A stretch of DNA of 64,000 bases from assembly GCF_006715785.1 (NCBI RefSeq), contig NZ_VFNX01000003.1, positions 62,001 through 126,000 on the forward strand, written 5' to 3'. This document shows positions 11,291-33,450 of the stretch, piece by piece. The notes below the pieces were generated by a model, which was not told the DNA's origin, did not search any database, and saw only the letters and a program-made list of their open reading frames with translations. Source of the DNA: Streptomyces puniciscabiei. Lineage in GTDB: Bacteria > Actinomycetota > Actinomycetes > Streptomycetales > Streptomycetaceae. The position numbers were made by a program, and so were the translations under genes. Each line of letters starts with the position of its first letter. Position 1 is the stretch's first letter.

Positions 11291-12166
11291 TCACTGGCCG
11301 GGGGCGCAGGTTCCCAGGCCGTAGACGCGGGTGGCGGTGGCGTCGAACAGCTGGGCGCGCTCGTCCCCGGTCAGGTCCCGGGCCAGGCCGCGCACGACTT
11401 GCGCCACCTGTGCGTACGTCCCCGCCGGCGTGCACGCCGGCCAGTCCGAGCCGAACATCAGGCGGCCGGGCCCGAAGGCGTTCAGCACCGTGTCCCAGTA
11501 GGGGCGTACGGGTGCGAGCGGCCAGGTGTCGCGGCCCCACAGCGACCGGTCCGCCTCGGTGAGCATCCCGGACACCTTGCACACCGTGTTGGGCAGCGCG
11601 GACAGCGCCCTGATGTGCGTGGCCCAGGGTTCGACCGCGCCGGACGCGACGGGCGGCTTGCCCAGGTGGTCCAGGACGAACGTGAGCTGGGGCAGCGCCT
11701 CGGCCGCCCGGACACACGCCGGGAGCTGGTGGGGCAGGACGACCAGGTCGTACACCAGGCCCGCCGCCGCCACGGCCGCGAGTCCCCGCCGTACGTCCTC
11801 GCGCAGCAGCCACTCCGGGTCCGGCTCGCCCTGGACCTGGTGCCGGATGCCCTTCAGGTAGGCGCCGCCGGGGAGTTCGCGCAGCCGGACCAGTTCGTCG
11901 GTGACGTCCGGGCGGGTCAGGTCGGTCCAGCCCACGACACCCGCGATCAGCTCGTGCCCGGCCGCCAGGGCCAGGAACTCCGGGGTCTCCTCCGGGACGG
12001 TGACCGTCTGGACGAGGACCGTACGGTCCACGCCGGCCGCGCGGGCCTCGGGCTCCAGGTCGGTCACCGTGAAGTTCCGTCGCAGGGACTGGAGTTCAGG
12101 CCCCTTGATCCAGTCCTGGTCGCGGACGGACAGATCCCAGACGTGGTGGTGGGCGTCGACGGTCAC
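11291..12166 (-). CDS. Amidohydrolase, probable L-fucono-lactonase
   Basis: Metal-dependent hydrolase of the amidohydrolase-2 family (291 aa) that would open L-fuconolactone to L-fuconate. The N-terminal metal motif is VDAHHHVWD, a central segment is FVLDHLGKPP, and the late catalytic aspartate lies in MFGSDWPA, all as in L-fucono-/L-rhamnono-lactonases. The GTG start (12166) overlaps the TGA of the mutarotase gene by 4 bases, so translation is probably coupled. It is the last gene of the eight-gene sugar operon that starts at 19179. Rhamnonate chemistry is possible, but the adjoining dehydratase favours fucose. Confidence 0.85.
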   Translation of the reverse strand: MTVDAHHHVWDLSVRDQDWIKGPELQSLRRNFTVTDLEPEARAAGVDRTVLVQTVTVPEETPEFLALAAGHELIAGVVGWTDLTRPDVTDELVRLRELPGGAYLKGIRHQVQGEPDPEWLLREDVRRGLAAVAAAGLVYDLVVLPHQLPACVRAAEALPQLTFVLDHLGKPPVASGAVEPWATHIRALSALPNTVCKVSGMLTEADRSLWGRDTWPLAPVRPYWDTVLNAFGPGRLMFGSDWPACTPAGTYAQVAQVVRGLARDLTGDERAQLFDATATRVYGLGTCAPGQ

Positions 12167-12513
12167 GGCAGCTCCCAGACGACGGGCAGTCCGGCGTTCC
12201 CGCCGCCTTCGGAGTAGTCGTGCACGACGTCGAGCAGTTCGGCCGTGCGGGCCTGCCAGGCCACGTTGACCGGCAGCTGTTCCAGTTGGGCGAGCAGGCG
12301 GCCGTAGTCCGCACAGTCCAGCAGATGGAACAGGGCGCTCCCTCCCCCACGCTCGGCTTCGCTCGCGCGGGGGGACCCCCACCGCCAGATGGTCCAGGAG
12401 GTGGCACCGGCGGCGCGGATGGCCCGGGTCAGTTCCTCCGGGACCGCGCGATGGGCCGCCTCGTACGCGGCGATCCGGTCGGGGCGGACCTTGGTGTGCA
12501 GGGCGACTCTCAT
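12163..12513 (-). CDS. L-fucose/L-rhamnose mutarotase family protein
   Basis: Small sugar mutarotase (116 aa) that would interconvert alpha and beta anomers of L-fucose or L-rhamnose before oxidation. The N-terminus RVALHTKVRPDRIAAYEAAH, the segment TSWTIWRW and LFHLLDCADYGRL fit the RhaM/FucM-like ferredoxin-fold family. Between WTIWRW and LFHLLD there is an extra stretch, GSPRASEAERGGGSA, encoded by a palindromic Streptomyces repeat (12338-12382), which lengthens a loop by about a dozen residues without shifting the frame. It overlaps the lactonase gene and the aldo/keto reductase gene by 4 bases on either side. Confidence 0.85.
   Translation of the reverse strand: MRVALHTKVRPDRIAAYEAAHRAVPEELTRAIRAAGATSWTIWRWGSPRASEAERGGGSALFHLLDCADYGRLLAQLEQLPVNVAWQARTAELLDVVHDYSEGGGNAGLPVVWELP
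12338..12382. repeat. Palindromic Streptomyces repeat unit inside the mutarotase gene
   Basis: A C-run, ACGCTCGGCTTCGCTCG and a G-run followed by ACCCCCA form an imperfect hairpin. It matches, from memory, a palindromic unit common between Streptomyces genes. Here it lies within a reading frame and is translated in phase as part of an inserted loop. Confidence 0.7.
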
Positions 12514-13481
12514 GACGGGCCCTCCTCTCGGGGCAGCAGACCGGACTCCCGCAGCTCCCGCCAGAACTCCGCCGGGACGGCCGTCGCGAACTGCTCGGCG
12601 CAGTCGTGGACTTCGGGCACGGAGCGGGGACCGGGCAGGACACTGGCGACGGCCGGGTGGGCGGCGGCGAAGGCCAGCGCGGCGGCGCGCAGGGTGATGC
12701 CGTGCCGCTCGGCCACCGCCTTCATCCGCAGGGCCCTGTCCAGCGTCTCCGGTGGGACACGGCGGTAGTCGTACGTCGACTCGGGCGTCGGGTCGGCCAG
12801 CAGGCCCGAGTTGAAGACGCCGCCGAGGACCACCGACACCCCGTGCTCGGCGGCCGCCGGCAGCAGTTCGGCGCCGGCGCTCTGGTCGAGCAGGGTGTAG
12901 CGGCCCGCGCACAGGACCACGTCCACGTCGGTGTCGCGGACGAACCGGGTGAGCATGGCGGTCTGGTTCATGCCCGCGCCGATCGCACCGACGACGCCCT
13001 CGGCGCGCAGCTTCTCCAGGGCCGGGTAGCCCTCGCGGAAGGCCTGCTCGGCGTGGTCGTCGGGGTCGTGCAGGTAGACGACGTCGACGCGGTCCAGGCC
13101 GAGGCGGCCCAGGCTCGCCTCCAGGGTGCGGCGGACGCCGTCGGCGCTGAAGTCCCACACCCGGCGGTGGGTCGCGGGTACGGCGAAGCCGTGGGCCAGG
13201 TCGTCACCCGTGCCGTCGGCCGGGTCGAGGCGGCGGCCGACCTTGGTGGAGAGGGTGTAGCCGGCCCGGTCGTACTGCCGCAGGGCGGCGCCGAGCCGGC
13301 GTTCGGACAGCCCGAGGCCGTAGTGCGGGGCGGTGTCGAAGTACCGGATGCCGCGCTGCCAGGCGGCCCGTACGGCCTGTCCCGCCTGCTCGTCGTCCAC
13401 CGGGCGGTAGAGGTTGCCGAGCGCCGCGGCGCCGAAGCCGAGCGGGGTGACCTCGACGCCGCTGCGGCCGAGCCGCGTCAC
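12510..13481 (-). CDS. Aldo/keto reductase, probable L-fucose (D-threo-aldose) 1-dehydrogenase
   Basis: NAD(P)-dependent oxidoreductase of the aldo/keto reductase superfamily (323 aa). It would oxidise L-fucose to L-fuconolactone, as D-threo-aldose 1-dehydrogenases do. Motifs are LGFGAAALGNLY near the N-terminus, FDTAPHYGLGLSERRLG with the catalytic Asp/Tyr, LHDPDD at the strand carrying the active-site His, and STKVGR with the Lys. Start GTG 13481 overlaps the SDR stop by 4 bases; its own stop overlaps the mutarotase ATG by 4 bases. Substrate assignment rests on operon context plus similarity to the fucose/pyridoxal dehydrogenase branch. Confidence 0.85.
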   Translation of the reverse strand: MTRLGRSGVEVTPLGFGAAALGNLYRPVDDEQAGQAVRAAWQRGIRYFDTAPHYGLGLSERRLGAALRQYDRAGYTLSTKVGRRLDPADGTGDDLAHGFAVPATHRRVWDFSADGVRRTLEASLGRLGLDRVDVVYLHDPDDHAEQAFREGYPALEKLRAEGVVGAIGAGMNQTAMLTRFVRDTDVDVVLCAGRYTLLDQSAGAELLPAAAEHGVSVVLGGVFNSGLLADPTPESTYDYRRVPPETLDRALRMKAVAERHGITLRAAALAFAAAHPAVASVLPGPRSVPEVHDCAEQFATAVPAEFWRELRESGLLPREEGPS

Positions 13482-14233
13482 CGGCCCACCGGCCGCAGCC
13501 TCAGGCCCTGCATGCCGCCGTCGACGGCGAGGGCGGTGCCGGTGGTAGCGCCGGACAGCGGACTGGCCAAGTAGGCGATGGCGCCCGCCACTTCGGCGGC
13601 GGAGACCAGCCGGCCGGTGGGCTGGCGGGCCTCCAGCGCCGCGCGTTCGGCGGCCGGGTCCGGGGCCGCGTCCAGCAGCCGGCCGATCCACGGGGTGTCC
13701 GCCGTACCGGGGTTGACGCAGTTCACGCGGATGCCCTCGCGGACGTGGTCGGCGGCCATGGCGAGGGTCAGGGAGTACACGGCGCCCTTGGTGGCGCTGT
13801 ACAGGGCCCGCTGGGGCAGTCCGGCGGTGGCAGCGATGGAGCAGGTGTTGACGATGGCGGCGTGCGACGAGCGGCGCAGGTGCGGGAGGGCGGCCCGGGC
13901 GGTGCGGACCATGCCGAGGACGTTGACGTCGAAGACGCGGAGCCACTCGTCGTCGTCGTTGTCCTCGACCGTGCCCTGGGCGCCGATCCCGGCGTTGTTG
14001 ACCAGCACGTCGAGGCCGCCGAGGTCCTCGGCGGCCCGCTCGACGGCGGCGCGGACCGAGGCGTCGTCGGTGACGTCGGCGCGGTGGGCGAGGAGCGGCT
14101 TGTCGACGTCCGCGGGGTCCCGGTCGAGGACGGCGACCCGGGCGCCACGGGCGGCGAGGAGGTCGGCGGTGGCCCGGCCTATGCCGGACGCGCCGCCGGT
14201 GACCAGGGCGCTGAGGCCCTCGAAGTCGCTCAT
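13478..14233 (-). CDS. SDR oxidoreductase, probable 2-keto-3-deoxy-L-fuconate dehydrogenase
   Basis: Short-chain dehydrogenase of 251 aa. The cofactor loop is VTGGASGIG, followed by NNAGIG, the catalytic Ser in [11 protein letters not shown] and the YSATKGA motif with Tyr and Lys. [10 protein letters not shown] is also typical. In the known non-phosphorylating L-fucose route an SDR oxidises 2-keto-3-deoxy-L-fuconate at C4 with NAD+. Its place directly after the L-fuconate dehydratase gene (4-bp overlap) fits that step. A glucose-dehydrogenase-like or other sugar role cannot be excluded from sequence alone. Confidence 0.85.
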
Positions 14234-15588
14234 GCGGCCTGTCCCTTCTGGGTGTCGGGGTCGGCGGCCCAGTAGGTGCCGCCGGGGAAGGTGTAGCGCG
14301 CGATCGACTCCGGGCGCAGGGCGGCGGAGAAGCCGGGCGCGGTGGGGGCGGTGTAGTGGCCGTCGCGGATGACGACCGGGGTGGTGAAGTGCTCGTGAAG
14401 GTGGTCGACGTACTCGATGACCCGGTCCTCGGTGGTGCCCGAGACGGCCACGTAGTCGAACATCGACAGGTGCTGGACGAGTTCGCACAGGCCGACGCCC
14501 CCCGCGTGCGGGCAGACCGGGACGCCGAACCTGGCGGCGAGCAGCAGGATGGCGAGGTTCTCGTTGACGCCGGCGACCCGGGCGGCGTCGATCTGGACGA
14601 TGTCGAGGGCGCCCGCCTGGAGGAGCTGCTTGAACATGATCCGGTTGTGCACGTGCTCGCCCGTGGCGACCTTGACCGGGGCCACCGCGCGGCGGATGGC
14701 GGCGTGGCCCAGGACGTCGTCGGGGCTGGTGGGCTCCTCGATCCAGTACGGGCCGAACTCGGCGAGGGCCTTGGTCCAGCGGATCGCCTCGTCGACGTTC
14801 CAGCGCTGGTTGGCGTCGACGGCGAGCCGGATGTCCGGACCGACGGCCGCGCGGGCGACCCGGCAGCGCCGGAGGTCGTCGTCGAGGTCGGCGCCGACCT
14901 TCAGCTTGATCTGCGTGAAACCGTCGGCGACGGCCTGCGCGGCGAGCCGGGTCAGCTTGTCGTCGTCGTAGCCGAGCCAGCCCGGGGAGGTGGTGTAGGC
15001 GGGGTAGCCCCGCTCCAGCAGCCGGGCCCGGCGCTCCCCGGCGCCTTCTCTCCCCCGCCTCAGCAGGTCGAGGGCCTCGGCGGGGGTGAGCGCGTCCGCG
15101 ATGTACCGGAAGTCGATCTGCCCGACCAGCCACTCGGGTTCGGCGTCGGCGAGCAGCTGCCACAGGGGCTTTCCGGCGCGCCGGGCGGCGAGGTCCCAGA
15201 CGGCGTTGACCACGGCCCCTACCGCCATGTGCATCACGCCCTTCTCCGGGCCGAGCCAGCGCAGCTGGCTGTCGCCGATCAGGTCCCGGAGGAGCGAGCC
15301 GGGGTCGGCGCACAGCTCGGCCACCTCGCGGCCGAGCACATGGTCCCTGAGCGCGTCGATCGCGGCGACCTGGACGTCGTTGCCCCGCCCGATGGTGAAG
15401 ACGAACCCGTGTCCCTCGTGCCCGTCGGCGGCGTCGGTGCGCAGCACGGCGTAGGCCGCCGAGTAGTCGGGGTCGGGGTTCATCGCGTCGGAGCCGTCCA
15501 GCTCGCGCGAGGTGGGGAAACGGATGTCGTGGGTGTCGACCGCGATGACGCGGGCGGGGGCCTGGGACACTGAAGTCCTTTCGGTCAT
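14230..15588 (-). CDS. L-fuconate dehydratase (enolase superfamily)
   Basis: Mandelate-racemase-type dehydratase of 452 aa, which would turn L-fuconate into 2-keto-3-deoxy-L-fuconate. The N-terminal capping region reads [19 protein letters not shown], a hallmark of the FucD/ENOSF1 group. The catalytic lysines are in FTQIKLKVG. Metal ligands follow in [19 protein letters not shown] and VATGEHVHN, and the catalytic His is in [11 protein letters not shown]. Length matches the family. This gene is the best single indicator that the operon handles L-fucose rather than L-rhamnose. It starts 18 bp after the permease gene and overlaps the SDR by 4 bases. Confidence 0.93.
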
Positions 15589-15606
15589 GGGGCAGCTGAT
15601 GGCTCG

Positions 15607-16635
15607 TCAGTCCTGGGCGCGGCCCGTCGTCACGCGCGCGATCATGAGGGCGACGAGGATGATCCCTCCGTAGATGGCCTGGATCCAGAACGACGGGACC
15701 TGGGCGAGGGTGAGCAGGTTCTGTACGACGCCCAGGAGGAGGACACCGGTCAGGGCGCCGAACATGGTGCCCTTGCCGCCGTCCAGGCTGATGCCGCCGA
15801 TCACGGCGGCCGCGAACACGGTGAAGATCATGTTCTGGCCCTGGTTGGCGCTGATCGCGCCGACGTACCCGGTCTGCAGCAGCCCGCCGACCGAGGCGAG
15901 CACACCCGCGACGACGTACACGCCGAGCATCACCCGGTCCACGCGGACACCGGCCGCGCGGGCGGCGTCCGCGTTGCCTCCGATCGCGTACAGGGCGCGG
16001 CCGGTGCGGTGGTACTTCAGCACGAACCCGGTGACGCCGAAGGCGACGGCGGCGAGCCACACGGACAGCGGGGCGTCGAGGAAGGTGGTGGTGGCCAGGG
16101 AGTAGAAGCTGTCGGGCATGCCGAACAGGGTCTTGCCCTTGGTGGCGCCGACCAGCAGACCGCGCAGCACGATGAGCATCGCGAGCGTGACGATGAAGGC
16201 GTTGAGCCGGAACTTCACGACCAGGACGCCGTTGAAGGCGCCGATCACCGCGCCGACCACGGGGATCGCGAGCAGGGCGAGCCCGGCCGGGAATTCCGTG
16301 CCCCAGCCGGACTGGCTCGCGGGCAGCACCAGCAGGGCCCCGACGGCCGGCGCGATGCCGACCACCGACTCCAGGGACAGGTCGAACCTGCCGGTGATCA
16401 GCACGAGGGACTCGGCGAGCACGACCATCGCGAGCGCGGCGGAGGCCCCGAGGATCGAGATCAGGTTCCGCTCGGTCAGGAACGAGTCGTTGACCACCGC
16501 GCCGAGCACCATGAGCAGCAACAGGGCGGGTACCAGGGCGAGTTCGCGGGCGCGGCGGAGCAGGACGGTCCTGGCCGACCGGGCGTCCGGGGTCTTCGTG
16601 GGTGCGAGCGGCGGGGCGGCCCGGGTGTCAGCCAT
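15607..16635 (-). CDS. CUT2-type sugar ABC transporter permease
   Basis: Membrane component of a ribose/RbsC-type importer (342 aa) with roughly ten hydrophobic segments. Family features are VLITGRFDLSLESVVG early and GGISLDGGKGTMFGAL late, matching the BPD_transp_2 fold. The ATG at 16635 is preferred because GGAG lies 6 bases upstream; an in-frame TTG at 16641 is less likely. It overlaps the end of the ATPase gene by 8 bases and is followed by the catabolic genes, so the cargo is probably L-fucose or a related deoxy sugar. Confidence 0.9.
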   Translation of the reverse strand: MADTRAAPPLAPTKTPDARSARTVLLRRARELALVPALLLLMVLGAVVNDSFLTERNLISILGASAALAMVVLAESLVLITGRFDLSLESVVGIAPAVGALLVLPASQSGWGTEFPAGLALLAIPVVGAVIGAFNGVLVVKFRLNAFIVTLAMLIVLRGLLVGATKGKTLFGMPDSFYSLATTTFLDAPLSVWLAAVAFGVTGFVLKYHRTGRALYAIGGNADAARAAGVRVDRVMLGVYVVAGVLASVGGLLQTGYVGAISANQGQNMIFTVFAAAVIGGISLDGGKGTMFGALTGVLLLGVVQNLLTLAQVPSFWIQAIYGGIILVALMIARVTTGRAQD

Positions 16636-18118
16636 GGTCAACTCCTTCGATGGAGGCGATCAGCTCGTGGTCGCGCCAGCCGGCCGGGTGCTCGGCGACG
16701 ACACGGCCGTGGAAGAGGACGAGGACGCGGTCGCAGCGGCGCAGGTCGTCGAGTTCGTCGGAGACGACGAGCACGGCGGTGCCGTCCTCGCGGGCGCTGT
16801 CCATGCGGGCCAGCAGCGACTCCTTGGACTTCACGTCGACACCGGCGGTGGGGTTGATCAGGATCAGGAGGCGGGGGCCGGACGCGAGGGCGCGGGCCAT
16901 CACCACCTTCTGGGCGTTGCCGCCGGACAGGTCGGACACCGGCTGGTCGGGGCCCTCGGCGTGGATGTCTAGGCGGTCGATCAGCTCGGCGGCGAAGCGG
17001 CGCCGCGCGTCGGTGGCGACGAATCCGGCCCGGCCCAGCCGGTCCAGCACGCTCAGCGTGGCGTTGTCGCCGATGCTCATGCCGGACACCAGTCCCTGCT
17101 CGTGCCGGTCGCGGGGCACACAGCCGACGCCGGCCCGCAGGGCGGCCGTGACGTCCCCGAACGGCAGGCGTTCCTTGTCGAGTTGAGCGGTGCCACCGGT
17201 CGGGGTGTGCAGCCCGGCGAAGGACTCGGCGAGCTCGGTCTTGCCGCTGCCGCTGGAGCCGGCGAGTCCGACGACCTCACCGCGGCGAACGGTGAGGTCG
17301 ACGTCCTGGTACGCCGGTGAGGTGAGGCCCTGTGCTCGCAGCAGGACCGGAGCCCCGTCGTCAACCACCGTACGACGTACCGCCTGTTCGGCGACGGACT
17401 CCCCAGCCATGGCCTCCACCAGCGCCGCCTTCGGCAGGTCGGCGACGGGGGCGGTGGTGATCCAGCGGGCGTCGCGCAGCACGGTGACCGTCTGACAGAC
17501 CTCGTACACCTCCTGCAGGTGGTGGGAGATGAACAGGAAGGTGACGCCGGAGTCCTGCAGGGAGCGCATGCGGGTGAAGAGCCGTTCGATCTCCCGGTTG
17601 TCGAGCTGGGCGGTGGGTTCGTCCAGCACGATGAACCGGGCGCCGAAGCTCAGCGCGCGGGCGATCTCGACCATCTGGCGGTCCTCGACCCTGAGGTCGG
17701 CGGTGCGCGCCTCGGGGTCGACGCGCACGTCCCAGGTGTCGAGGAGTTCGGCGGCCTGCCGGCGCAGGCGGCGCCAGCTGATGAGGCCGCGGCCGGTCGG
17801 CTGCCGGTTGAGGAACAGGTTCTCGGCGACCGTCAGCTCCGGGACGACCGTGGGCTTCTGGTAGACGCAGGCCACCTTGCGGCGCCAGGCGTCCCGGGCG
17901 GCGAGCGCGGGCGCGGGCGTGCCGTCGAAGCGGATGGTGCCCGCGTCCGGTGCCTGCAGGCCGGTGAGGACGTTGACGAGGGTGGACTTGCCGGCGCCGT
18001 TGCGGCCGACCAGGGCGTGGGACTCGCCGGGGCGGACGGTGAGCCGGCCGTCGGCGAGGGCGACGGTGGGGCCGTAGCGCTTGACGATCCCCTCGGCTTC
18101 CACAAGCGGTGTGCTCAT
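16628..18118 (-). CDS. CUT2-type sugar ABC transporter ATPase (two nucleotide-binding domains)
   Basis: RbsA/MglA-like protein (496 aa) with two fused ATPase domains. Domain 1 has Walker A GRNGAGKST and Walker B FIVLDEPTAQLD. Domain 2 has Walker A GSSGSGKTE and a good signature DLSGGNAQ. However, its Walker B region reads LLILINPTAGVD, so the magnesium-binding Asp and the catalytic Glu are replaced by Ile and Asn. Domain 2 is therefore likely to bind but not efficiently hydrolyse ATP. The start ATG 18118 overlaps the TGA of the binding-protein gene by 4 bases. Confidence 0.9.
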   Translation of the reverse strand: MSTPLVEAEGIVKRYGPTVALADGRLTVRPGESHALVGRNGAGKSTLVNVLTGLQAPDAGTIRFDGTPAPALAARDAWRRKVACVYQKPTVVPELTVAENLFLNRQPTGRGLISWRRLRRQAAELLDTWDVRVDPEARTADLRVEDRQMVEIARALSFGARFIVLDEPTAQLDNREIERLFTRMRSLQDSGVTFLFISHHLQEVYEVCQTVTVLRDARWITTAPVADLPKAALVEAMAGESVAEQAVRRTVVDDGAPVLLRAQGLTSPAYQDVDLTVRRGEVVGLAGSSGSGKTELAESFAGLHTPTGGTAQLDKERLPFGDVTAALRAGVGCVPRDRHEQGLVSGMSIGDNATLSVLDRLGRAGFVATDARRRFAAELIDRLDIHAEGPDQPVSDLSGGNAQKVVMARALASGPRLLILINPTAGVDVKSKESLLARMDSAREDGTAVLVVSDELDDLRRCDRVLVLFHGRVVAEHPAGWRDHELIASIEGVDHG

Positions 18119-19179
18119 TTGACCGTGTTGCCCCACAGTTGGGGATCGTCGACGTTGGCCTTGGTGACCAGGGGCGCGGGCAGCTGGTCCTCGAGGATGC
18201 CGCCGGGCAGTTCGACGATCGTGGACCCGTGGTCGGTCGGCCCCGGCTTGAACGTCTTCCCGGCCATCGCGGCCTTGATGTAGTACAGGCCGTACTTGGC
18301 GTAGGCGTCGGCGGGCTGGGAGACCGTGGCGTCGATCTCGCCCTTGCGGATGGCGTCGAACTCCTGCGGGATGCCGTCGTTGGAGACGATCGCGATGTGG
18401 CCCTTCTGCCCGGCCGCTTTCAGCATGTTCTTGGACTTCAGGGTCTGCAGGGTCGGCGCGAGGTAGACACCGCCGGCCTGCAGGTAGATCCCCTTGATGT
18501 CGGGGTTGGCGTTGAGGAGCGTGTCGAGCTTGGCGGCGGCGGTGTCGGACTCCCACTTGGCGGGGATCTCCAGCACCTTCAGCTTCGGGTACTTCTTCTT
18601 CACGCAGGACCGGAAGGCCGCGGAGCGGTCCCGGCCGTTGACCGAGGCAAGGTCGCCCATGACCTGTACGACCTTGCCGCTGCTCACGTGCTGTCCGAGG
18701 TAGTCGCAGGCCTTCTCGCCGTAGGCCACGTTGTCGGCGCGCACCACCATGGCGACCTTGCCCTTGTCGGGCGCGACGTCCACGGCGACCACGGGGACGC
18801 CCTTGCGCTCGGCCTGGTCGAGTCCGGCCTGGATCGCGGCGCTGTCCAGCGGGGCGACCACCAGTCCCTTGACGCCCTGGGTGAGTTCGTTGTCGATGTC
18901 GGTGATCTGCTGGGAGGGGTCGCTGTTGGAGTTGACCGTCTTCAGCACCTCGACGCCCTCGGACCTGGCCATCTTGGGCACGTAGTCGTTGTACGACTGC
19001 CAGAACGGCGAGGTCAGCAGCGGCAGGATCACGCCCACCTTGCCGGTGCCGCCGCTGCCCGCGCTCGCGGTGTCCTTGGTGCTGCCGCAGGCGGCGAGCA
19101 TGAGCGAGGCACCGGCGGCCAGAGCCACCGCGCCGATGATCCGTGACCTGCTGCGCTTCCTGACTGTGCTGGCGGGCAT
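18115..19179 (-). CDS. Sugar-binding lipoprotein of CUT2 ABC importer
   Basis: Extracellular solute-binding lipoprotein (354 aa) of the periplasmic-binding-protein-4 (ribose/galactose) family. It has a basic N-terminus, a hydrophobic stretch and a lipobox LMLAACG at about residues 29-35. The mature part reads GKVGVILPLLTSPFWQSYND and ends in a ligand-binding C-lobe. ATG 19179 follows GAGGAG at a good spacing; the longer frame upstream reaches into the promoter. First gene of the operon: its promoter region carries a FadR-type operator between the -35 and -10 hexamers. Probable ligand is L-fucose, inferred from downstream enzymes. Confidence 0.9.
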   Translation of the reverse strand: MPASTVRKRSRSRIIGAVALAAGASLMLAACGSTKDTASAGSGGTGKVGVILPLLTSPFWQSYNDYVPKMARSEGVEVLKTVNSNSDPSQQITDIDNELTQGVKGLVVAPLDSAAIQAGLDQAERKGVPVVAVDVAPDKGKVAMVVRADNVAYGEKACDYLGQHVSSGKVVQVMGDLASVNGRDRSAAFRSCVKKKYPKLKVLEIPAKWESDTAAAKLDTLLNANPDIKGIYLQAGGVYLAPTLQTLKSKNMLKAAGQKGHIAIVSNDGIPQEFDAIRKGEIDATVSQPADAYAKYGLYYIKAAMAGKTFKPGPTDHGSTIVELPGGILEDQLPAPLVTKANVDDPQLWGNTVK

Positions 19180-19219
19180 CTCGCGGCTCCTCGTCGAGGG
19201 TGTTCGAGCAGACGCCGCA

Positions 19220-19247
19220 TACTTATCAGACCAATAAGCCGAGTCAA
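19220..19247 (-). promoter_or_regulatory. Promoter with embedded FadR-type operator (fucose operon)
   Basis: On the minus strand TTGACT (19242-19247) and TAAGTA (19220-19225) are 16 bp apart. The interval plus the -10 is filled by CTTATTGGTCTGATAAG (19222-19238), whose core TTGGTCTGA matches the FadR-subfamily GntR site TGGTCnGACCA. Binding here would block RNA polymerase directly. Confidence 0.65.
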
Positions 19248-19284: not shown

Positions 19285-19299
19285 AGTGGTCGGACCACT
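19285..19299. promoter_or_regulatory. FadR-type operator upstream of the regulator gene
   Basis: A perfect 15-bp palindrome, AGTGGTC-G-GACCACT, 44 bp before the regulator's GTG start and overlapping the likely -35 of its promoter (candidate -10 TAGACT at 19308-19313). It suggests autoregulation. Confidence 0.7.
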
Positions 19300-26600: not shown

Positions 26601-26625
26601 GGAGTGTCCTTGTGACGTACGGGGT

Positions 26626-27531
26626 TCAGCCCTTCACGGCCCCCTCGCCGACCCCGCGGAAGAAGTACCGCTGCAGGCAGGCGAACAGCGCGATGAGCGG
26701 GGCCACGGCGATCACGGTGCCGGCGGCGACGAGGCGTTCGTCGTTCGCGAAGGTGCCGTGCAGGTAGTTCAGGCCGATGGTGAGGGTGAACTTGGACGGG
26801 TCGCTGAGCACGATCAGGGGCCACAGGAAGTCGTCCCAGGCGCCCATGAAGGCGAAGATCGCGACGACGGCCAGCGTGCCCTTCACCGAGGGCAGGGCGA
26901 CGCGCAGGAACCGCTGCCAGACGTTGGCGCCGTCGACGTAGGCCGCCTCCTCGATCTCGTACGGCAGGTTCCGGAACGCGTTCCGCATCAGCAGCACGTT
27001 CATCGCGCCGACCGCGCCGGGCAGCACGACGCCGATGAGCGTGTTGTTCAGGCCGAGTTCGCGCATGGTGGTGAACTGGGCGATGACGATGCCCTCGACC
27101 GGCACGAGCATCGCCAGCACGAACACCAGGGTGGTCACGCGCCGGCCACGGAAGCGCAGCCGGGCCAGGGCGTACCCGGCGAGCGCCGAGCCGACGCAGT
27201 TGGTGACGACGTTGGCGGTGGCGACCTTGAGGGAGTTCAGGGCGTAGTCCCAGACGGGGATGGTGTCGGCGACCCGGGTGTAGTTGTGCAGGGTGGGGTG
27301 CGCGGGCAGGAAGCTCGGCGGTGAGCCGTAGATGTCCTCGGTGGGGCCCTTGAGGGAGGTGGACAGCTGCCAGAGGAACGGGCCGACGGTCAGCGCGAGG
27401 ACGGCGAGCAGCAGCAGATAGCGCCAGGCCAGCTCGCCGACGCGGATGCGCCGGCCGTGCTCGTCGGTGACGCGCCGCTCCTTGCGCGCGGTGACCGGCG
27501 GCCCGGGCCGCACCTTCTCCAGGACGCTCAC
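26626..27531 (-). CDS. CUT1-type sugar ABC transporter permease (MalG-like)
   Basis: Inner-membrane permease of 301 aa with six predicted membrane segments. The conserved cytoplasmic EAA-type loop is EIEEAAYVDGANVWQRFLRV. The GTG start (27531) overlaps the preceding permease gene by 4 bases. A ~35-residue basic N-terminal tail precedes the first membrane helix. It pairs with the MalF-like protein encoded upstream. No ATPase gene is present in the cluster, as usual in Streptomyces, where the shared ATPase MsiK serves many CUT1 importers. Confidence 0.92.
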   Translation of the reverse strand: MSVLEKVRPGPPVTARKERRVTDEHGRRIRVGELAWRYLLLLAVLALTVGPFLWQLSTSLKGPTEDIYGSPPSFLPAHPTLHNYTRVADTIPVWDYALNSLKVATANVVTNCVGSALAGYALARLRFRGRRVTTLVFVLAMLVPVEGIVIAQFTTMRELGLNNTLIGVVLPGAVGAMNVLLMRNAFRNLPYEIEEAAYVDGANVWQRFLRVALPSVKGTLAVVAIFAFMGAWDDFLWPLIVLSDPSKFTLTIGLNYLHGTFANDERLVAAGTVIAVAPLIALFACLQRYFFRGVGEGAVKG

Positions 27532-28415
27532 GACTCCTCCCGGCGGTCGGCGCGCAGCACCAGCAGCATGAGCGCGACGGTGACGAGGAACACGACGACC
27601 GACAGCGCGGAGGCGTAGCCCACGCGGCCGGTCAGGCCCGTGCCGGTGCGCTGGACGAGCATGACCAGCGTGGTGTCCTCGCCGGCCGGGCCGCCGTCGG
27701 GGCCGGCCATCAGATACACCTCGGAGAACACCTTGAAGGCGGCGACCGAGGAGAGGGCGGCGACCAGCACCATGGTGGAGCGGACGGCGGGCACGGTGAC
27801 CGAGAGGAAGCGGCGCACCGGGCCCGCGCCGTCCACGGCGGCGGCCTCGTGCAGTTCGCGCGGCACGTTCGCCAGCGCCGCCAGGTAGATGATCATGTAG
27901 TAGCCGAGGCCCTTCCACACCGTGACGGCCATCGCGCTCAGCAGGAGCAGCCACTGGTCGCTGAGGAAGCCGACCCGGCCGATCCCGATCGTCTCCAGCA
28001 GCGAGTTGACCAGTCCGCGTTCGTCCAGCAGCCACACCCAGATCAGCCCGACGACCACGATCGAGGCGACGACCGGGGTGTAGAAGGCGGAGCGGAAGAA
28101 GGTGATGCCGGGGATGTTCTTCTGCACCAGCAGCGCGAGCAGCAGGGGCAGGACGACCAGGGCGGGTACGACGCCGACGATGTACAGGGTGCTGTTGCGC
28201 AGGCCGGTCCAGAACATGTCGTCGTGCAGCAGCTCACGGAAGTTGGCGAGGCCCACGAAGTGGCCCGGCAGCAGGGTGCGGCGGTCGGTGAAGGAGTTCA
28301 CCAGGGTGGAGACGAACGGGTAGAGCACGAAGACGCCCGTGACGAGCAGTCCCGGCACGGCGAACAGCCAGGGGCTGAAGGGCAGTTGGCGCCTGATGCG
28401 GACCGGGGTCGCCAT
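27528..28415 (-). CDS. CUT1-type sugar ABC transporter permease (MalF-like)
   Basis: Permease of 295 aa with six membrane segments and the EAA motif ELHEAAAVDGAGPVRRFLSV. It forms the heterodimeric pore with the MalG-like partner. The gene begins 5 bp after the binding-protein gene and overlaps the next permease by 4 bases, so the three importer genes are one translational unit. The cargo is probably a mannose- and GlcNAc-containing oligosaccharide because GH5, GH85 and GH38 genes follow. Confidence 0.92.
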   Translation of the reverse strand: MATPVRIRRQLPFSPWLFAVPGLLVTGVFVLYPFVSTLVNSFTDRRTLLPGHFVGLANFRELLHDDMFWTGLRNSTLYIVGVVPALVVLPLLLALLVQKNIPGITFFRSAFYTPVVASIVVVGLIWVWLLDERGLVNSLLETIGIGRVGFLSDQWLLLLSAMAVTVWKGLGYYMIIYLAALANVPRELHEAAAVDGAGPVRRFLSVTVPAVRSTMVLVAALSSVAAFKVFSEVYLMAGPDGGPAGEDTTLVMLVQRTGTGLTGRVGYASALSVVVFLVTVALMLLVLRADRREES

Positions 28416-28420
28416 GGCCG

Positions 28421-29707
28421 TCAGCCCTGCTGGAGCAGTCGGTCGGCGGCGTTGACAGCGTTGTCAAGAGCCTGCTCGGGGCTCTCCTTGCCCTGGAGCG
28501 CCTTGGCCACCTCGTTGCGCAGCGCGGTCTTCATCTGGTCGCTGAACAGCACGGGCGTGTAATTGACCGCGCTTTTGAGGGACTTGGCGGCGGCGACGCG
28601 CACCCGGGTCTCGTCGGTGCCGTCCTCCTTGGTGAAGTAGGGGTCGTTCAGGGAGCCGGCGGTGCTGGGGAAGATGGCGACCTGCTTGGCGAAGGCCATC
28701 TGGTTCTGCGCGTCGGTGACGAAGTGGGCGAAGGCGACGGCGGCCGGGGTGTGCCTGGTGCGGGAGTTGACCATCACGCCCATCACGTACATGTTGACGT
28801 GCCCGGTGCTGGTGATCTGGTCGGTGATGCCGATGTTCCGGTACAGGCTGGGCGCGTTCTTCTTGAAGTTGTCCAGGTCGAGGGCGCTGCCGGGGTTCAT
28901 GGCGACGGCGCCGGTGAGGAACTTCTTGCCGGAGGACTCCGGGGTGGCGGTCAGCGCCTGCGGGTCGAGGGCCTTGGCGTCGTACAACTCCTTGTACTTG
29001 CTGAGGAGTTCGACTCCCTTGGCGTCGTTGAAGGCGAACGCGGTGCCCTGCTTGTTCATCAGGGTGACGCCGTAGCGGCCGAAGTCCTCGATGGTGGGCA
29101 CGTTCGCGAGGGTGGCGACCTTGCCGCCGCTCTTCTTCGCCATCCGCAGGGCGTCGGCGAAGAGTTCGTCGTACGTCTGCGGCGGATGGTCGGGGTTCAG
29201 TCCGGCCTTGGTGAACAGGGCCTTGTTGTAGAAGAGCGGCCCGGTGTTCAGGTACCAGGGGAAGGCGTACGTGCCGCTCATGCCCGGCACCTGGTGGCCG
29301 GCCCAGGCGCCGGGCAGGTACTCGGACCTGTACGTGGCGGCCGCCTTGTCGAGGTCGAGGGCGAGGCCCGCCTTGGCGAGCGGCGCGACCAGGTCCGGGG
29401 AGACGTTGACGACGTCGGGCAGGGTGCCGCCGCCGGCCTCCGCGCTGAGCTTGTCGGCGTAGCCCTCGGCGGGCTGGTCGACCCACTTCACATGCGTGCC
29501 GGGGTACTTCTTCTCGAAGTCGGCTATGAGGCCCTCGAAGTACGGCTTGAAGTTCGCGCGCAGATTCCAGGTCTGGAAGGTGATGTCGCCCTCGACCTTG
29601 CCGGACGCGTCGGTCGAGCCGCCGCCGTCGCCGCCCGAGCCGCAGGCGCTCAGCGGCAGGACGAGGGCGACGGCAGCGGCGGCGAGGGCTCTGCGAGACA
29701 TGGGCAC
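28421..29707 (-). CDS. Oligosaccharide-binding lipoprotein of CUT1 ABC importer
   Basis: Extracellular solute-binding lipoprotein (428 aa) of family 1. The signal peptide ends in a lipobox LPLSACG at about 18-24, followed by a Gly/Ser linker and GDITFQTWNLRANFKPYFEG. The C-terminal lobe ends DRLLQQG. GTG 29707 is about 10 bases after AAGGGAG; ATG 29701 (MSRRAL) is the alternative and changes only two residues. First gene of the six-gene operon. LacI-type inverted operators lie in the 220-bp divergent region upstream. Confidence 0.92.
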   Translation of the reverse strand: MPMSRRALAAAAVALVLPLSACGSGGDGGGSTDASGKVEGDITFQTWNLRANFKPYFEGLIADFEKKYPGTHVKWVDQPAEGYADKLSAEAGGGTLPDVVNVSPDLVAPLAKAGLALDLDKAAATYRSEYLPGAWAGHQVPGMSGTYAFPWYLNTGPLFYNKALFTKAGLNPDHPPQTYDELFADALRMAKKSGGKVATLANVPTIEDFGRYGVTLMNKQGTAFAFNDAKGVELLSKYKELYDAKALDPQALTATPESSGKKFLTGAVAMNPGSALDLDNFKKNAPSLYRNIGITDQITSTGHVNMYVMGVMVNSRTRHTPAAVAFAHFVTDAQNQMAFAKQVAIFPSTAGSLNDPYFTKEDGTDETRVRVAAAKSLKSAVNYTPVLFSDQMKTALRNEVAKALQGKESPEQALDNAVNAADRLLQQG

Positions 29708-29794
29708 GGTGACACGGCTCCCTTGCTGTGTCAGGGGTCGGGGGGCGCCAGAGACCTTGCCCGCGGCGTTCGAGGAAAGTCAATGCATTCACCG

Positions 29795-29824
29795 GGACTA
29801 AAGAAATCAGCTCTTTATTAGTCC
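29795..29824. promoter_or_regulatory. Inverted repeat in the importer operon leader
   Basis: GGACTAA (29795-29801) and TTAGTCC (29818-29824) form perfect 7-bp arms around an AT-rich centre, in a locally AT-rich island between the divergent genes. It may be part of the promoter or a second regulator site. Confidence 0.4.
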
Positions 29825-29862
29825 AGGTCAGAGACGTTTCAGCACAAGCTTGCCGTCAACCG

Positions 29863-29900
29863 CTAATGCGCTTTAGGGTCTTGACGCTCAAGCGCATTAG
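29863..29900. promoter_or_regulatory. Paired LacI-type operator candidates
   Basis: CTAATGCGCTT (29863-29873) and its exact reverse complement AAGCGCATTAG (29890-29900) lie between the LacI-type regulator gene and the divergent binding-protein gene. The GCGC core with flanking T/A resembles LacI-family half sites. The pair could bind a dimer or a tetramer and control both directions. Confidence 0.55.
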
Positions 29901-29927
29901 CAGCACAGTCGGGAAGGGAGGACGAAC

Positions 29928-30995
29928 GTGCCGACCAAACGGTCCCCCGCGCGCCGGCCCACCATGAAGGACATCGCCCGGCGGGCCGGAGTCTCCGAGA
30001 GCGCCGTGTCCTTCGCGCTCAACGGCCGCCCCGGCGTCTCCGAGGCCACCCGGGCGCGGGTCCGCCGGGTCGCCGAGCAGCTCGGCTGGCGGCCCAGCAC
30101 CGCCGCCCGCGCCCTGTCCGGCGAGGGCGCCGCCACGGTCGGCTTCGTCCTCGCCCGCCCCGCACACACGCTGGGCGTCGACTCCTTCTTCCTCCAGCTC
30201 GTCTCCGGCATCCAGGAGGTGCTGGCCGAGCGGCACTTGGGCCTGCTGTTCCAGGTCGCGGAGGACGTGCCCGAGGAGTGCGCGGTGTACCGGCGCTGGT
30301 GGGCCGAGCACCGGGTCGACGGCGTCCTGGTGGCCGACCCGCGCGCCGCCGACCCGCGCCCCGACCTGCTGGACGAACTCGGGCTGCCCGCCGTGGTGAT
30401 CGGCGGCGCACCCGACGTACGGCACCCCGGCCTGGCCACGGTCCGGGCGGACGACGCGGGCGCTATGGCCTCCGTGGTGGACGAGCTGACGGCGCTCGGT
30501 CATCGCCGGATCGTGCACATCGCCGGGCTGCCCGAACTGGCCCACACCCAGCGCCGTATCGCCACGCTGCGGGCCGAGGCGGAGCGGCGCGGGCTCACCG
30601 AGGTCCGCTCGGTCACCACCGACTACTCCGACGCCCAGGGCGCCGCCGTCACCCGCCGCGTGCTCGGCGACCCGCCCGTCCCCACGGCGCTCATCTACGA
30701 CAACGACGTGATGGCCGTGGCCGGCCTGGCCGCCGCCGCGGAACGGGGCTTCCGCATCCCGCAGGACGTGTCGGTGGTCTCCTGGGAGGACTCGGCCCTG
30801 TGCCGCATGGTCACCCCCCGGCTGTCCGCGCTCTCCCGCGACAGCGCGGAGTTCGGCCGCACGGCGGCCCGCGAACTGCTGTCGCTGCTGGACGGCAACC
30901 CGGCCCGCTCGGTGGGGGTGCCGGTGCCACGGCTGACGGGGCGGGGCAGTACGGCGTCGGTTCCCGTCAACCCGCCCTCTGGGCAGCCCACTTGA
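29928..30995 (+). CDS. LacI-family transcriptional regulator
   Basis: Repressor of 355 aa. The N-terminal helix-turn-helix and hinge are at about 12-65 (MKDIARRAGVSESAVSFALNG, ending in the hinge helix ARALSG). The periplasmic-binding-protein-like effector domain is at about 70-345 (TVGFVLARP, RVDGVLVADPR, ALIYDNDVMAVAGL). The GTG start follows GGGAAGGGAGGA. It is divergent from the CUT1/GH operon, with inverted operator-like sites in between, so it probably represses that operon until an N-glycan-derived sugar binds. A terminator hairpin follows at 31049-31083. Confidence 0.92.
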   Translation: MPTKRSPARRPTMKDIARRAGVSESAVSFALNGRPGVSEATRARVRRVAEQLGWRPSTAARALSGEGAATVGFVLARPAHTLGVDSFFLQLVSGIQEVLAERHLGLLFQVAEDVPEECAVYRRWWAEHRVDGVLVADPRAADPRPDLLDELGLPAVVIGGAPDVRHPGLATVRADDAGAMASVVDELTALGHRRIVHIAGLPELAHTQRRIATLRAEAERRGLTEVRSVTTDYSDAQGAAVTRRVLGDPPVPTALIYDNDVMAVAGLAAAAERGFRIPQDVSVVSWEDSALCRMVTPRLSALSRDSAEFGRTAARELLSLLDGNPARSVGVPVPRLTGRGSTASVPVNPPSGQPT

Positions 30996-31048
30996 GGAAC
31001 CGCGTGACAGCTGCTTGGTCCCGCCCAGGAAACCGGCCCGGACGAGAG

Positions 31049-31083
31049 CGGGCGGGAGCAGACCCTGGAGCCGCTCCCGCCCG
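31049..31083. terminator. Bidirectional terminator hairpin
   Basis: CGGGCGGGAGC (31049-31059) and GCTCCCGCCCG (31073-31083) form a perfect 11-bp stem with a 13-nt loop. It lies between the convergent LacI-type gene and the GH29 gene. Confidence 0.75.
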
Positions 31084-31113
31084 ACCTGCGTGCCTGCGCA
31101 CGGTCCCTGCTGT

Positions 31114-33450
31114 TCAGGCCCGCCAGCTCACCTTGAACACCCACACATGGCGGCCCGCCCTCCGTGCGGCCTCCGGTACGTCGACGACCAGCGAGCCGCC
31201 TGAGACGGTCCAGTTCAGGGGGCGGTCGTAGCCGAGCATGGTGACCTTGTCACCGGACCGCACCGGCACCGGCGCCTCGACGATCAGCCTCGCGCCCGGC
31301 TCGGCCAGCGAGTGGATGTAGAACGCCTCGTCGGGGCGGACCGTGAACCGCAGGTCCTCGCCGAGCTGCGCCATCCGCGACCAGTACGTCGTGTCGTAGA
31401 TCGCCTCGCCGTTGACCTTGAGCCAGGCGCCCGTCTCCCGCAGCCGGGACTGCAGGATCTCCGCGATGGTGCCGTCGGCGCGCGGCCCGATGTCCAGGAG
31501 GAAGTTGCCGTTCTTGGAGACGATGTCGACGAGGCTGTGCACGACCTCCTCGGCCGTCATGTAGGCGGCGTCCGGGGTTGCCCGGTTGTAGCCGTAGCTG
31601 AACGGATCGAGCCCCCGGCTGGACTCCCACTTGGCGACGACCGTGTTGGCGTACGTCGTGTACTCGGGCGTCGTGAAGTCGTGGAAGGCGATGCCCGAGC
31701 GGTTGTTGACGGTCACGTCGATCGGGCGGGCCCGGTTCTTGGCGTGGTTGAAGTACTCGGCGAGGACATGGAGGCTGTCGTTCGCACCGCCGATGTCGCA
31801 CCAGATGATCTCCGGGTCGTAGCCGTGGATCAGTTCGAGCATCTGCGGGGCCTGGTAGTCGTGCACGTAGTCCTTGCCCGCGGTGTATCCCGTGTACGGA
31901 ACCGGCCGCAGGGTGTACGGGTTGCGCGGGGCGTGGCCCATCCACGGGTTGTCGGGGTTGAACCACTCCGGCATGGAGAAGTAGAGCCCGCGGTGGAGTT
32001 CGGGGGCGTACCGCCGGGATGCCTCGAACAGTTCCCCGACCAGGTCGCGCTTCGGGCCCAGCCGGACGGCGTTGCGGTCGGAGACCTTCGTGTCCCACAG
32101 GGCGAAGCCCTCGTGGTGTTTGGAGGTCAGGACGTGGTACTGGGCGCCGGCCTCCCGGAACAGCTCCACCCAGGCACGCGGGTCGAAGCGCTCGGCGGTG
32201 AAGCGCGGGATGAAGTCGTCGTAGGCGAAGTCCTCACCGTAGGTGGCGCGGTGGTAGGCGTGCGTGGGGTTGGCAGGGTCCTGCATCTGGTCCCAGTACC
32301 ACTCGGCGTACTGCTTGCCGACCGGTGCCCAGGCGGGCACCGAGTAGACGCCCCAGTGGATGAAGATGCCGAACTTGGCGCCCTGGAACCAGTACGGCGC
32401 CTGATGCCCGGAGAGGGATGACCCGGTGGGCTGGTAGTCGGCCACTCCGAGGGTCAACCTGCTGCGGGCGGACGCGGCTTGAGCGCCTCGGCCGACCACG
32501 GTCACCGTGCCGTCCTGCCGGGTACCGGGGGCTGTGCCCGTGCGATTGCGGATGCCGATGCGGACGCGGGTCTGTTCGCCGGGGTCGAGGCGGCGGATGC
32601 GGGCGGGCTCGACGGTGCGGGCGCCGGGGACGTCGACGCGCGCGGACACGTCGTCGCCGGAGAGGATCGGGACGGTGCCGGCGTTGACGACCGTGGCCTC
32701 GACGCTCTGGGCGCCGGTGGCCTCCAGCAGGGAGGCGGTGGAGTGGGCGTCGCGCAGGGCCAACGCCCGTCCCTGGGCGGCGGGTTGGAGGGAGAGGGCG
32801 AAGACGTGCAGGGACGCCTTGTTCGCCTCGGCGGGGTTCGTGACCGGCAGGGTCATGGCGACGGCCGCGCGCCGCGGGTCGATCCACACCTCCGACGTGC
32901 CGATACCGACGGTGTGCTCGTCCTTGGTGCCGTCCGGCTTGTAGCGGTACGGCGCCGACAGTGAACCGCCCGCCGCGTACCAGTCGGCGCCGCCGAGGCC
33001 GGCGGTGCTGGTGGAACCGTCGGCGTAGTGGACGGTGACCTGGCCGGACGCGTCGCCATAACTCCCGGCGGTGAGGAAGGCGGCCGACAGGTAGCGGCCT
33101 CGGGGCAGGTCGATGCGCTGGCCGAGCGCGACGACGTTGTTCTTGGCGCCCGCAGTCGACGCGGGGAAGGCGAAGGGGATGCCGTCGACCTCGATGCGGC
33201 CCGCGGGGAGTTCGTCGCCCGGGAACGTGTAGCCCGAGCCGTCGAAGTCGCCGCCGCGGGCGGAGCCGGTGTCGATGCCGTCGTTGTCGTAGAGGGCGTC
33301 GAGCGGGACGGGCACCGGGTCGGGGACGGTGGCCCACGTCATCTGCTGTCCGGCGGCCCGCGCGGGGGGTGGGGTGGTGAGCGGCAGGGCGGCCGCAGCG
33401 GTCGCGCCGGCTGCCGCGCCCAGGATCAGACGTCTGGGATACATGCTCAT
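31114..33450 (-). CDS. Secreted alpha-L-fucosidase, family GH29, with N-terminal accessory region
   Basis: Exported fucosidase (778 aa) expected to remove alpha-linked L-fucose from glycans. A Tat-like signal (YPRRLILGAAAG, cleavage near ARAAG) is followed by a ~300-residue beta-rich region that looks like a carbohydrate-binding or fibronectin-like module. The GH29 barrel starts at about 365 (KFGIFIHWGVYSVP, TSKHHEGFALWD). The probable nucleophile Asp is in EIIWCDIGG, and NGNFLLDIGPRADG is conserved. ATG 33450 follows GGGAG. It stands alone beside the N-glycan cluster, divergent from the amidase gene. It would supply L-fucose to the operon at 11-19 kb. Confidence 0.93.
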   Translation of the reverse strand: MSMYPRRLILGAAAGATAAAALPLTTPPPARAAGQQMTWATVPDPVPVPLDALYDNDGIDTGSARGGDFDGSGYTFPGDELPAGRIEVDGIPFAFPASTAGAKNNVVALGQRIDLPRGRYLSAAFLTAGSYGDASGQVTVHYADGSTSTAGLGGADWYAAGGSLSAPYRYKPDGTKDEHTVGIGTSEVWIDPRRAAVAMTLPVTNPAEANKASLHVFALSLQPAAQGRALALRDAHSTASLLEATGAQSVEATVVNAGTVPILSGDDVSARVDVPGARTVEPARIRRLDPGEQTRVRIGIRNRTGTAPGTRQDGTVTVVGRGAQAASARSRLTLGVADYQPTGSSLSGHQAPYWFQGAKFGIFIHWGVYSVPAWAPVGKQYAEWYWDQMQDPANPTHAYHRATYGEDFAYDDFIPRFTAERFDPRAWVELFREAGAQYHVLTSKHHEGFALWDTKVSDRNAVRLGPKRDLVGELFEASRRYAPELHRGLYFSMPEWFNPDNPWMGHAPRNPYTLRPVPYTGYTAGKDYVHDYQAPQMLELIHGYDPEIIWCDIGGANDSLHVLAEYFNHAKNRARPIDVTVNNRSGIAFHDFTTPEYTTYANTVVAKWESSRGLDPFSYGYNRATPDAAYMTAEEVVHSLVDIVSKNGNFLLDIGPRADGTIAEILQSRLRETGAWLKVNGEAIYDTTYWSRMAQLGEDLRFTVRPDEAFYIHSLAEPGARLIVEAPVPVRSGDKVTMLGYDRPLNWTVSGGSLVVDVPEAARRAGRHVWVFKVSWRA

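Follow-up and report, generated by a model that had tools for sequence, protein, structure and literature searches.

A putative N-glycan utilisation operon under a predicted dedicated LacI-family regulator, with an L-fucose operon, probably under separate control, as its neighbour, in Streptomyces puniciscabiei

Analysis of 64,000 nucleotides of Streptomyces puniciscabiei (assembly GCF_006715785.1, contig NZ_VFNX01000003.1, positions 62,001 to 126,000), hereafter the window, to whose numbering all positions refer unless a locus is named, indicated that it carries a self-contained operon for the utilisation of N-glycans, predicted to be under a private LacI-family regulator. An L-fucose oxidation operon beside it is best read as a separate, facultative neighbour, and a GH29 alpha-L-fucosidase gene as a third unit. 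We give this reading a probability of about 0.75. The genome measures 9.15 Mb, and the window lies in its contig 3. The first-pass annotation of this DNA had proposed one island for N-glycan harvesting and fucose salvage; the N-glycan operon is well supported, but the genes carry three control elements and appear to form three control units, not one island. The two separately regulated operons and the fucosidase that the annotation had distinguished were all recovered, one operon being headed by LacI, the other by GntR, and GH29 having its own promoter. The families it had named were also found, GH38, GH85, GH29, GH92 and the importer families CUT1 and CUT2 by Pfam, and GH5 as GH5_18 by its solved relatives.

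Genes of the putative N-glycan operon

Families were assigned by Pfam and by comparison with solved proteins of the PDB, with NCBIfam added for the lactonase of the fucose operon, while signal sequences and lipoboxes were read by eye in the protein starts. The N-glycan operon lies on the minus strand and runs from 29707 to 20261 in the order binding protein, permease A, permease B, GH5_18, GH85 and GH38. The first gene (28421..29707) encodes a CUT1 solute-binding lipoprotein (SBP_bac_1, 2.6e-43; lipobox LSAC) and is followed by those for the CUT1 permeases A (27528..28415; BPD_transp_1, 2.3e-12) and B (26626..27531; BPD_transp_1, 1.1e-20), which overlap by 4 bases. The GH5 protein (25344..26600) had no match in Pfam and was matched almost over its full length by solved GH5_18 enzymes, the top match (residues 5-408 of 418, E 8.8e-207) being 7lr7, deposited as 'ScGH5_18', followed by 9y4v, BlGH5_18 and BlMan5B. 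The stretches GNEVNQF and LQEVGAP are conserved in this predicted exo-beta-mannosidase, and no signal was seen in it.

The GH85 gene (23320..25347; Glyco_hydro_85, 2.8e-81, 274 bits) begins directly behind GH5 with a 4-base overlap and encodes a predicted secreted endo-beta-N-acetylglucosaminidase with an RR-type signal (SRRTVLIAG..). Alignment with solved endo-beta-N-acetylglucosaminidases (2vtf, 3fha and 2w91) spans about 600 residues and revealed that the catalytic N-x-E is kept, WFVNAET being aligned to WFINQET of 3fha. The last gene (20261..23281) encodes a GH38 alpha-mannosidase without a visible signal (Glyco_hydro_38N, 1.3e-94, 317 bits), closest to 7ufs (E 1.5e-255) and its variants. 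The sorting proposed earlier, in which GH85 and GH29 are exported and GH5 and GH38 are not, agrees with these signals read by eye.

A characterised GH5_18 enzyme cleaves Man-beta-1,4-GlcNAc (mannosyl-N-acetylglucosamine) of the N-glycan core (PMC6160142; also named in PMC10154615), and pairs of GH38 and GH5_18 are known N-glycan genes (PMC6160142, PMC10154615). Gene order, the putative LacI operators and the relatives of characterised GH5_18, GH85 and GH38 enzymes make an N-glycan harvesting operon a well supported prediction. In the mechanism that we infer, GH85 would act outside the cell and cleave the N-glycans of glycoproteins between both core GlcNAc units, the CUT1 binding lipoprotein and its permeases would take up the freed Man(n)GlcNAc, and the remaining enzymes would work in the cytoplasm, GH38 removing the alpha-mannoses and GH5_18 cleaving the leftover Man-beta-1,4-GlcNAc. 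The divergent LacI protein would repress the N-glycan operon alone through two operators 24 bp apart and be released on binding a product of the glycan taken up, while the L-fucose oxidation operon would be under its own GntR/FCD regulator.

The LacI regulator and its putative paired operators

The LacI-family regulator gene (29928..30995, plus strand; LacI 3e-15, Peripla_BP_3 1.5e-33) is divergent from the N-glycan operon, and the gap between it and the binding-protein gene contains two sites of the form CTAAWGCGCWTTAG. Both are putative LacI operators by conservation of the motif, O2 (CTAATGCGCTTTAG, 29863..29876) having no mismatch to it and O1 (29887..29900), 24 bp from O2, having one. The motif was built from 74 promoters, that of the window included, and was searched in the best 80 of 228 GH85 loci from named genomes. 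At up to two mismatches all 149 matches in the 80 loci fell inside the gap between LacI and binding protein, and matches were present in 73 of the 73 loci that have this gap. Among 20 further loci outside the derivation set, 18 have the gap and all 18 carry paired sites, spaced 24 bp in 17 and 23 bp in one, with no match elsewhere.

In the genome of the strain itself, the matches with no or one mismatch are only the two sites of the window; two extra places appearing at two mismatches were treated as chance, the total of 4 comparing with 14 in the reversed control. The two matches found in the window alone at up to three mismatches are no excess over shuffled sequence (27 of 100 shuffles reach 2), so that the case for LacI operators depends on their place and conservation. 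LacI together with its paired sites looks like a dedicated local switch. A DasR site had no match in the window at up to three mismatches. A third inverted repeat (GGACTAATAAAG ... CTTTAGTCC) was observed at 29795-29824, in the stretch that separates the LacI operators from the binding-protein gene, and is possibly a further operator or a hairpin.

Conservation of the N-glycan genes

GH5_18, GH85 and the L-fuconate dehydratase (FucD) of the fucose operon were searched in 295 genomes of the same genus, own genome included. Distances and strands were counted from the listed matches only, namely GH5_18 in 148 genomes (of 202 with any match, the weaker being unlisted; second copies in G002 and G161 excluded), GH85 in 107 (of 120; 13 weak or fragment matches excluded) and FucD in 125 (of 187; those unlisted or below about 77% identity excluded). 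Where both GH5_18 and GH85 were listed (105 genomes), the two genes lay at most 5 kb apart in 101, at most 0.45 kb apart in 97 and on the same strand in 98; one of the remaining four pairs was far apart on one contig and three were on separate contigs. GH85 of at least 57% identity was found in 104 of the 295 genomes, and 102 of these 104 have a listed GH5_18 (p 1e-39). Since GH85 is so frequent and nearly always beside GH5_18, Streptomyces may feed on glycoproteins regularly.

The 80 loci contained LacI in 73, the binding protein in 74, each of the two permeases in 74, GH5 in 74 and GH38 in 75, and the importer belonged to the GH85 gene block, on the same strand, in 74. The N-x-E motif of GH85 was kept in all 80, as such in 74 and as DGWFLNAE in 6. 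Across the phylum, a sample of 396 genomes that includes the own one and covers 236 genera had GH5_18 (E at most 1e-60) in 6 genomes of 2 genera. The locus of the second genus (L169, genome G602) repeats this gene order from LacI through binding protein, permeases and GH5 to GH38, and its 19.5 kb contain neither GH85 nor a fucose gene. In another genome a distant second GH5_18 was observed together with a set of CUT1 genes of its own (L170; G067 contig 1, about 2.26 Mb), where genes that by eye are GH3-like and kinase-like lie between GH5_18 and CUT1 and no GH38 match was found in 19 kb.

Several observations weigh against a self-contained N-glycan operon. A listed GH5_18 without a listed GH85 occurs in 43 of the 148 genomes, and glycan release there must come from elsewhere; a GH18 enzyme such as Endo H of S. 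plicatus, which is named in PMC5762919, could be the releaser. In L034, L036, L039 and, judging from its gene list, L035, an amidase gene, GH85, GntR and the fucose operon follow in succession; GH85 looks intact in these four loci, and LacI, importer, GH5, GH38 and the LacI operator are absent there. L082 has kept GH85 and GH38 and lacks importer and GH5, and the LacI operator pattern was not found in the locus of the second genus. The corresponding operon of Bifidobacterium longum has three GH38 genes and one GH125 (PMC10154615), whereas the island here has one GH38; no GH125 was found among the scanned island genes, the rest of the genome not having been searched for it. Several GH38 genes and GH125 were taken as accessory for membership of the B. 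longum type. Two genomes (G020 and G111) with GH85 and FucD 4.7 kb apart resemble the L034-type loci by distance alone, and in both the importer-GH5-GH38 core stands on another contig, without GH85 and with LacI operators.

The 43 genomes without a listed GH85 would also suit a CUT1 operon for another mannoside, such as fungal alpha-mannan fragments or beta-mannosides, with GH85 as a passenger, as would genomes G255 and G080, in which only a GH85 fragment remains behind GH5, which points to loss. We consider such a passenger role very unlikely, given that characterised GH5_18 has as its substrate the Man-beta-1,4-GlcNAc in N-glycan cores (PMC6160142, PMC10154615), that GH85 and GH5 overlap by 4 bases in the window and that GH85 is near GH5 in 101 of the 148 genomes.

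The predicted fucose oxidation operon

The second operon lies on the minus strand from 19179 to 11291 in the order binding protein, ATPase, permease, FucD, short-chain dehydrogenase/reductase (SDR), aldo/keto reductase (AKR), mutarotase and lactonase. The CUT2 monosaccharide-binding lipoprotein (18115..19179; Peripla_BP_4, 2.4e-52), in which a lipobox was likewise read, is followed by a CUT2 ATPase (16628..18118; two ABC_tran stretches) and a CUT2 permease (15607..16635; BPD_transp_2, 1.8e-33). FucD (14230..15588), a member of MR_MLE, matched 1yey over 437 residues (E 8.2e-202). The SDR (13478..14233; adh_short_C2, 1.1e-55) is from its context a probable 2-keto-3-deoxy-L-fuconate dehydrogenase, the AKR (12510..13481; Aldo_ket_red, 5.1e-46) a probable L-fucose dehydrogenase, and the amidohydrolase (11291..12166; Amidohydro_2, 9.5e-53) a probable L-fucono-1,5-lactonase, preceded by a rhaM-type sugar mutarotase (12163..12513; PF05336, 4.7e-14). 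Overlaps of 4 bases join the binding protein to the ATPase, FucD to the SDR, the SDR to the AKR, the AKR to the mutarotase and the mutarotase to the lactonase.

The closest solved relatives of the AKR are L-galactose dehydrogenases, and the lactonase, which matched 4dlf at 1.9e-44, reached 230 bits with NCBIfam FuconLaconase against a cut-off of 400 bits; both enzyme names are therefore less sure. The CUT2 binding protein is closest to ribose-type proteins. These three features could be taken to mean that the operon serves chiefly another sugar, for example L-galactose or D-arabinose, which seems improbable in view of the close full-length match of FucD to L-fuconate dehydratase and of the GH29 gene, which accompanies the fucose operon alone (10 of 10 loci on the tree described below). 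L-fucose salvage by this operon is a supported prediction at the level of the pathway. A hydrolase of the fumarylacetoacetate hydrolase type for the last step, acting on 2,4-diketo-3-deoxy-L-fuconate, was not found in the island or the window, and the six FAA_hydrolase matches of the genome are on contig 1 (five) and contig 4 (one), none being in the window. The fucose oxidation pathway of the first-pass annotation is clear as to FucD and qualified by the last enzyme, which is not in the island, and by the two less certain names.

A GntR/FCD regulator gene (19343..20059, plus strand; FCD 4.6e-25, GntR 1e-20) is divergent from this operon. The putative GntR operator GTGGTCNGACCAC (19286..19298) is proposed from its conservation beside GntR, where it is present in 57 of 59 GntR-bearing loci; the pattern gave 63 matches in the 80 loci, 59 beside GntR and 4 elsewhere. 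It is followed by a conserved TGGTCTGATAA, which has the form AGTGGTCTGATA in 48 of 53 promoters. At one mismatch the pattern was found at 31 places of the own genome and at 99 in the reversed control; with matches below the control, the analysis relied on the perfect site next to GntR alone.

On the fucose side the 80 loci contained GntR in 59, the CUT2 binding protein in 52 and FucD in 45, some genes being cut off by the 10 kb flank. The region downstream carried the CUT2 binding protein with FucD in 43 loci, partial fucose genes in 14, a lipase-maturation-factor gene without fucose genes in 12 and neither in 7, the record being too short in 4. Some loci without fucose genes still carry GntR (L065, L087 and L102). 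At this place the fucose block is a variable element, present in one locus and missing from the next. Reduced sets were also observed, L080 and L108 having fucose genes without the CUT2 importer and L051 and L055 having only SDR and AKR; they may reflect stepwise decay or the use of a different importer.

The GH29 gene and its promoter

The GH29 alpha-L-fucosidase gene (31114..33450, minus strand; Alpha_L_fucos, 4.6e-101, 339 bits; 1hl8, 1.7e-80) lies behind the LacI gene and encodes a predicted secreted protein (signal PRRLILG.. by eye). Its most likely start is 33450, preceded by GGGAG, as the first-pass annotation had placed it. The GH29 promoter has neither the LacI nor the GntR operator and contains the palindrome TCATCCGATCA (33548..33558), the third control element, with a related palindrome at 33474-33484. 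Its layout is similar to that of the GntR operator and its half-sites are different, binding of the local GntR to the GH29 promoter being conceivable. Of 6 readable GH29 promoters, 5 contain TCATCCGATCA and the remaining one has it with a single change; with the window included, TTGACAG was found in 7 of 7 promoters and ACNTCCGATGA in 6 of 7. The palindrome occurs at 7 places of the genome against 0 in the control; the other six stand beside genes without a visible glycan link, as judged from their first residues, and none was claimed for a regulon.

GH29 was found at this place in 8 of the 80 loci, while 65 have room behind LacI without GH29 and 7 could not be scored; wherever scorable, it was accompanied by fucose genes. 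The own genome has four GH29 matches. One belongs to a second fucose-type set on contig 1, at about 71.5-83.5 kb (G000; L155:5557-17490), where a GH29 gene with ricin-type lectin domains stands beside an alpha-L-arabinofuranosidase gene; genes for CUT2, MR_MLE, a lactonase-like protein and a zinc alcohol dehydrogenase run divergently from the GH29 gene. In L145 (G117) the genes after GH29 are GH5 and GH38; no LacI, importer or GH85 was found in between, and the GH29 promoter may now drive GH5 and GH38.

Linkage of N-glycan and fucose genes

The cut made by GH18 and GH85 enzymes falls between both GlcNAc units of the core, and core fucose is carried on the core GlcNAc (PMC10154615). It follows that the fucose stays on the protein after GH85 has acted, and a joint role of both operons would be chemically sensible. 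In a joint system for core-fucosylated glycoproteins GH85 would cut off the glycan, GH29 would free the fucose of the stump, CUT2 would import it and the oxidation operon would burn it. The positions of the genes are consistent with this. In the 53 genomes with GH85 and FucD both listed, the two are at most 14 kb apart in 42 and on the same strand in all 42, the other 11 pairs being far apart on one contig (4) or on separate contigs (7), and L034, L035, L036 and L039 keep GH85 beside the fucose operon despite the absence of LacI, importer, GH5 and GH38.

The presence of GH85 and any FucD over the 295 genomes is, on the contrary, unlinked (79 genomes against 76 expected, p 0.54), also when GH85 of at least 57% identity is counted (68 against 66, p 0.62). 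An excess appeared for FucD of at least 82% identity, both with GH85 (49 against 35 expected, p 0.0003) and with GH5_18 (62 of 148 genomes with it against 36 of 147 without, p 0.002), but this FucD set is enriched in linked copies. The co-occurrence across Streptomyces genomes that the first-pass annotation had proposed as a check holds for GH85 with GH5_18 (101 of 105) and for FucD near GH85 (42 of 53); over the genus, the presence of GH85 is unlinked to that of any FucD and in excess with FucD of at least 82% identity.

A GH5 gene tree of 93 loci was constructed with a quick method, 42 of its 90 inner branches being drawn open; L105 and L062 (short GH5) and L034, L035, L036, L039, L042 and L082 (without GH5) are not in it, and 20 of the 93 loci were hand-picked, mostly because GH85 is absent beside GH5. 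At the minimum, GH85 changed 9 times, the fucose operon 21 times and GH29 7 times on this tree, counts that a poorly resolved tree may inflate and in which gain and loss are not distinguishable. The tree loci bearing GH29 have the fucose operon in 10 of 10 cases against 44 of 78 for the others (p 0.006). Between GH29 and GH85 there is no such relation (p 1.0). The fucose operon is present in 50 of 70 loci with GH85 against 5 of 20 without (p 0.0005), but the tree includes the 20 hand-picked loci, most of them chosen for lacking GH85. Independent pairs on the tree number 4 or 5, too few for any of these associations to reach significance.

Taken with the three separate control elements, the presence of GH29 in just 8 of the 80 loci and the second GH29 of the own genome beside a CUT2-MR_MLE-lactonase set, these results make a joint system for core-fucosylated glycoproteins unlikely, though it deserves consideration. 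The N-glycan and fucose genes may have a joint role, but neither the control elements nor genus-wide co-occurrence demonstrate one. A variant in which GH85 leaves a fucosyl-GlcNAc stump, GH29 frees the fucose outside and the GntR operon imports and oxidises it, two switches thus serving one substrate and repeated co-inheritance keeping the genes neighbours, is distinctly doubtful; if it were true, L034, L035, L036 and L039 would be 'fucose-only' harvesters that expose the fucosylated stump and leave the glycan. Most likely the fucose operon is a frequent but independent neighbour of the N-glycan operon, and GH29 is the companion of the fucose operon rather than of GH85.

Comparison with known systems

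The GH38 protein matches the alpha-mannosidases 7ufr-7ufu, which we take to be B. longum proteins, and GH5_18 matches BlGH5_18 and BlMan5B. In B. longum, high-mannose N-glycans are released outside by an endo-glycosidase, imported whole and degraded inside by alpha-mannosidases and GH5_18 (PMC10154615), and the external release, import and internal trimming by alpha-mannosidase and GH5_18 proposed here would resemble this route. The Streptomyces operon differs in the 4-base overlap of GH85 with GH5 and in the paired LacI operators 24 bp apart. A locus of Cutibacterium acnes (PMC6160142) shares the pair of GH38 and GH5_18, a sugar transporter of the ATP-binding cassette type, a regulator and cytoplasmic core trimming, but has GH20 and GH18, whereas the island here has GH85 and no GH20. 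The EndoD pathway of Streptococcus pneumoniae (PMC10154615) is similar in that GH85 releases the glycan and the product is imported; in that pathway trimming by GH92 precedes GH85, whereas here GH92 is about 7 kb from GH29 and has no LacI operator. The second operon resembles L-fucose oxidation with L-fuconate dehydratase (1yey, 2hne) in FucD, the probable lactonase and the SDR, and differs in its AKR-type dehydrogenase, its CUT2 importer and a last-step hydrolase that is not in the operon.

The first-pass annotation had called such a unit little described in Streptomyces. This is fair for the whole unit, since no description of the operon in Streptomyces was found in titles and abstract openings among the matches listed from the open literature. 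It is less so for GH5_18, for which ScGH5_18 structures exist and 51 Streptomyces sequences were noted in 2018 (PMC6160142). The N-glycan routes of the cited papers are mainly those of gut and skin bacteria (PMC10154615, PMC6160142). The parts found here belong to known kinds, and both their arrangement and their presumed switches are defined well enough for testing. The paired sites of the dedicated LacI offer a direct handle, by which a reporter could reveal the glycans sensed by the cell, and GH85 of this clade may serve as an enzyme for glycan release. According to a review, activity on plant N-glycans had not been described for any GH18 or GH85 (PMC10154615), which makes plant N-glycans interesting as GH85 substrates.

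Neighbouring genes

No TTA codons were found in the 18 genes examined. A GH92 gene (40418..42739, minus strand; Glyco_hydro_92, 1.1e-140, 470 bits), whose product has a signal sequence by eye, has neither a LacI operator nor a perfect GntR operator in its surroundings. In the locus of the second genus (L169 14277-17366) a GH92 gene was observed directly behind LacI, the position taken by GH29 in the window.

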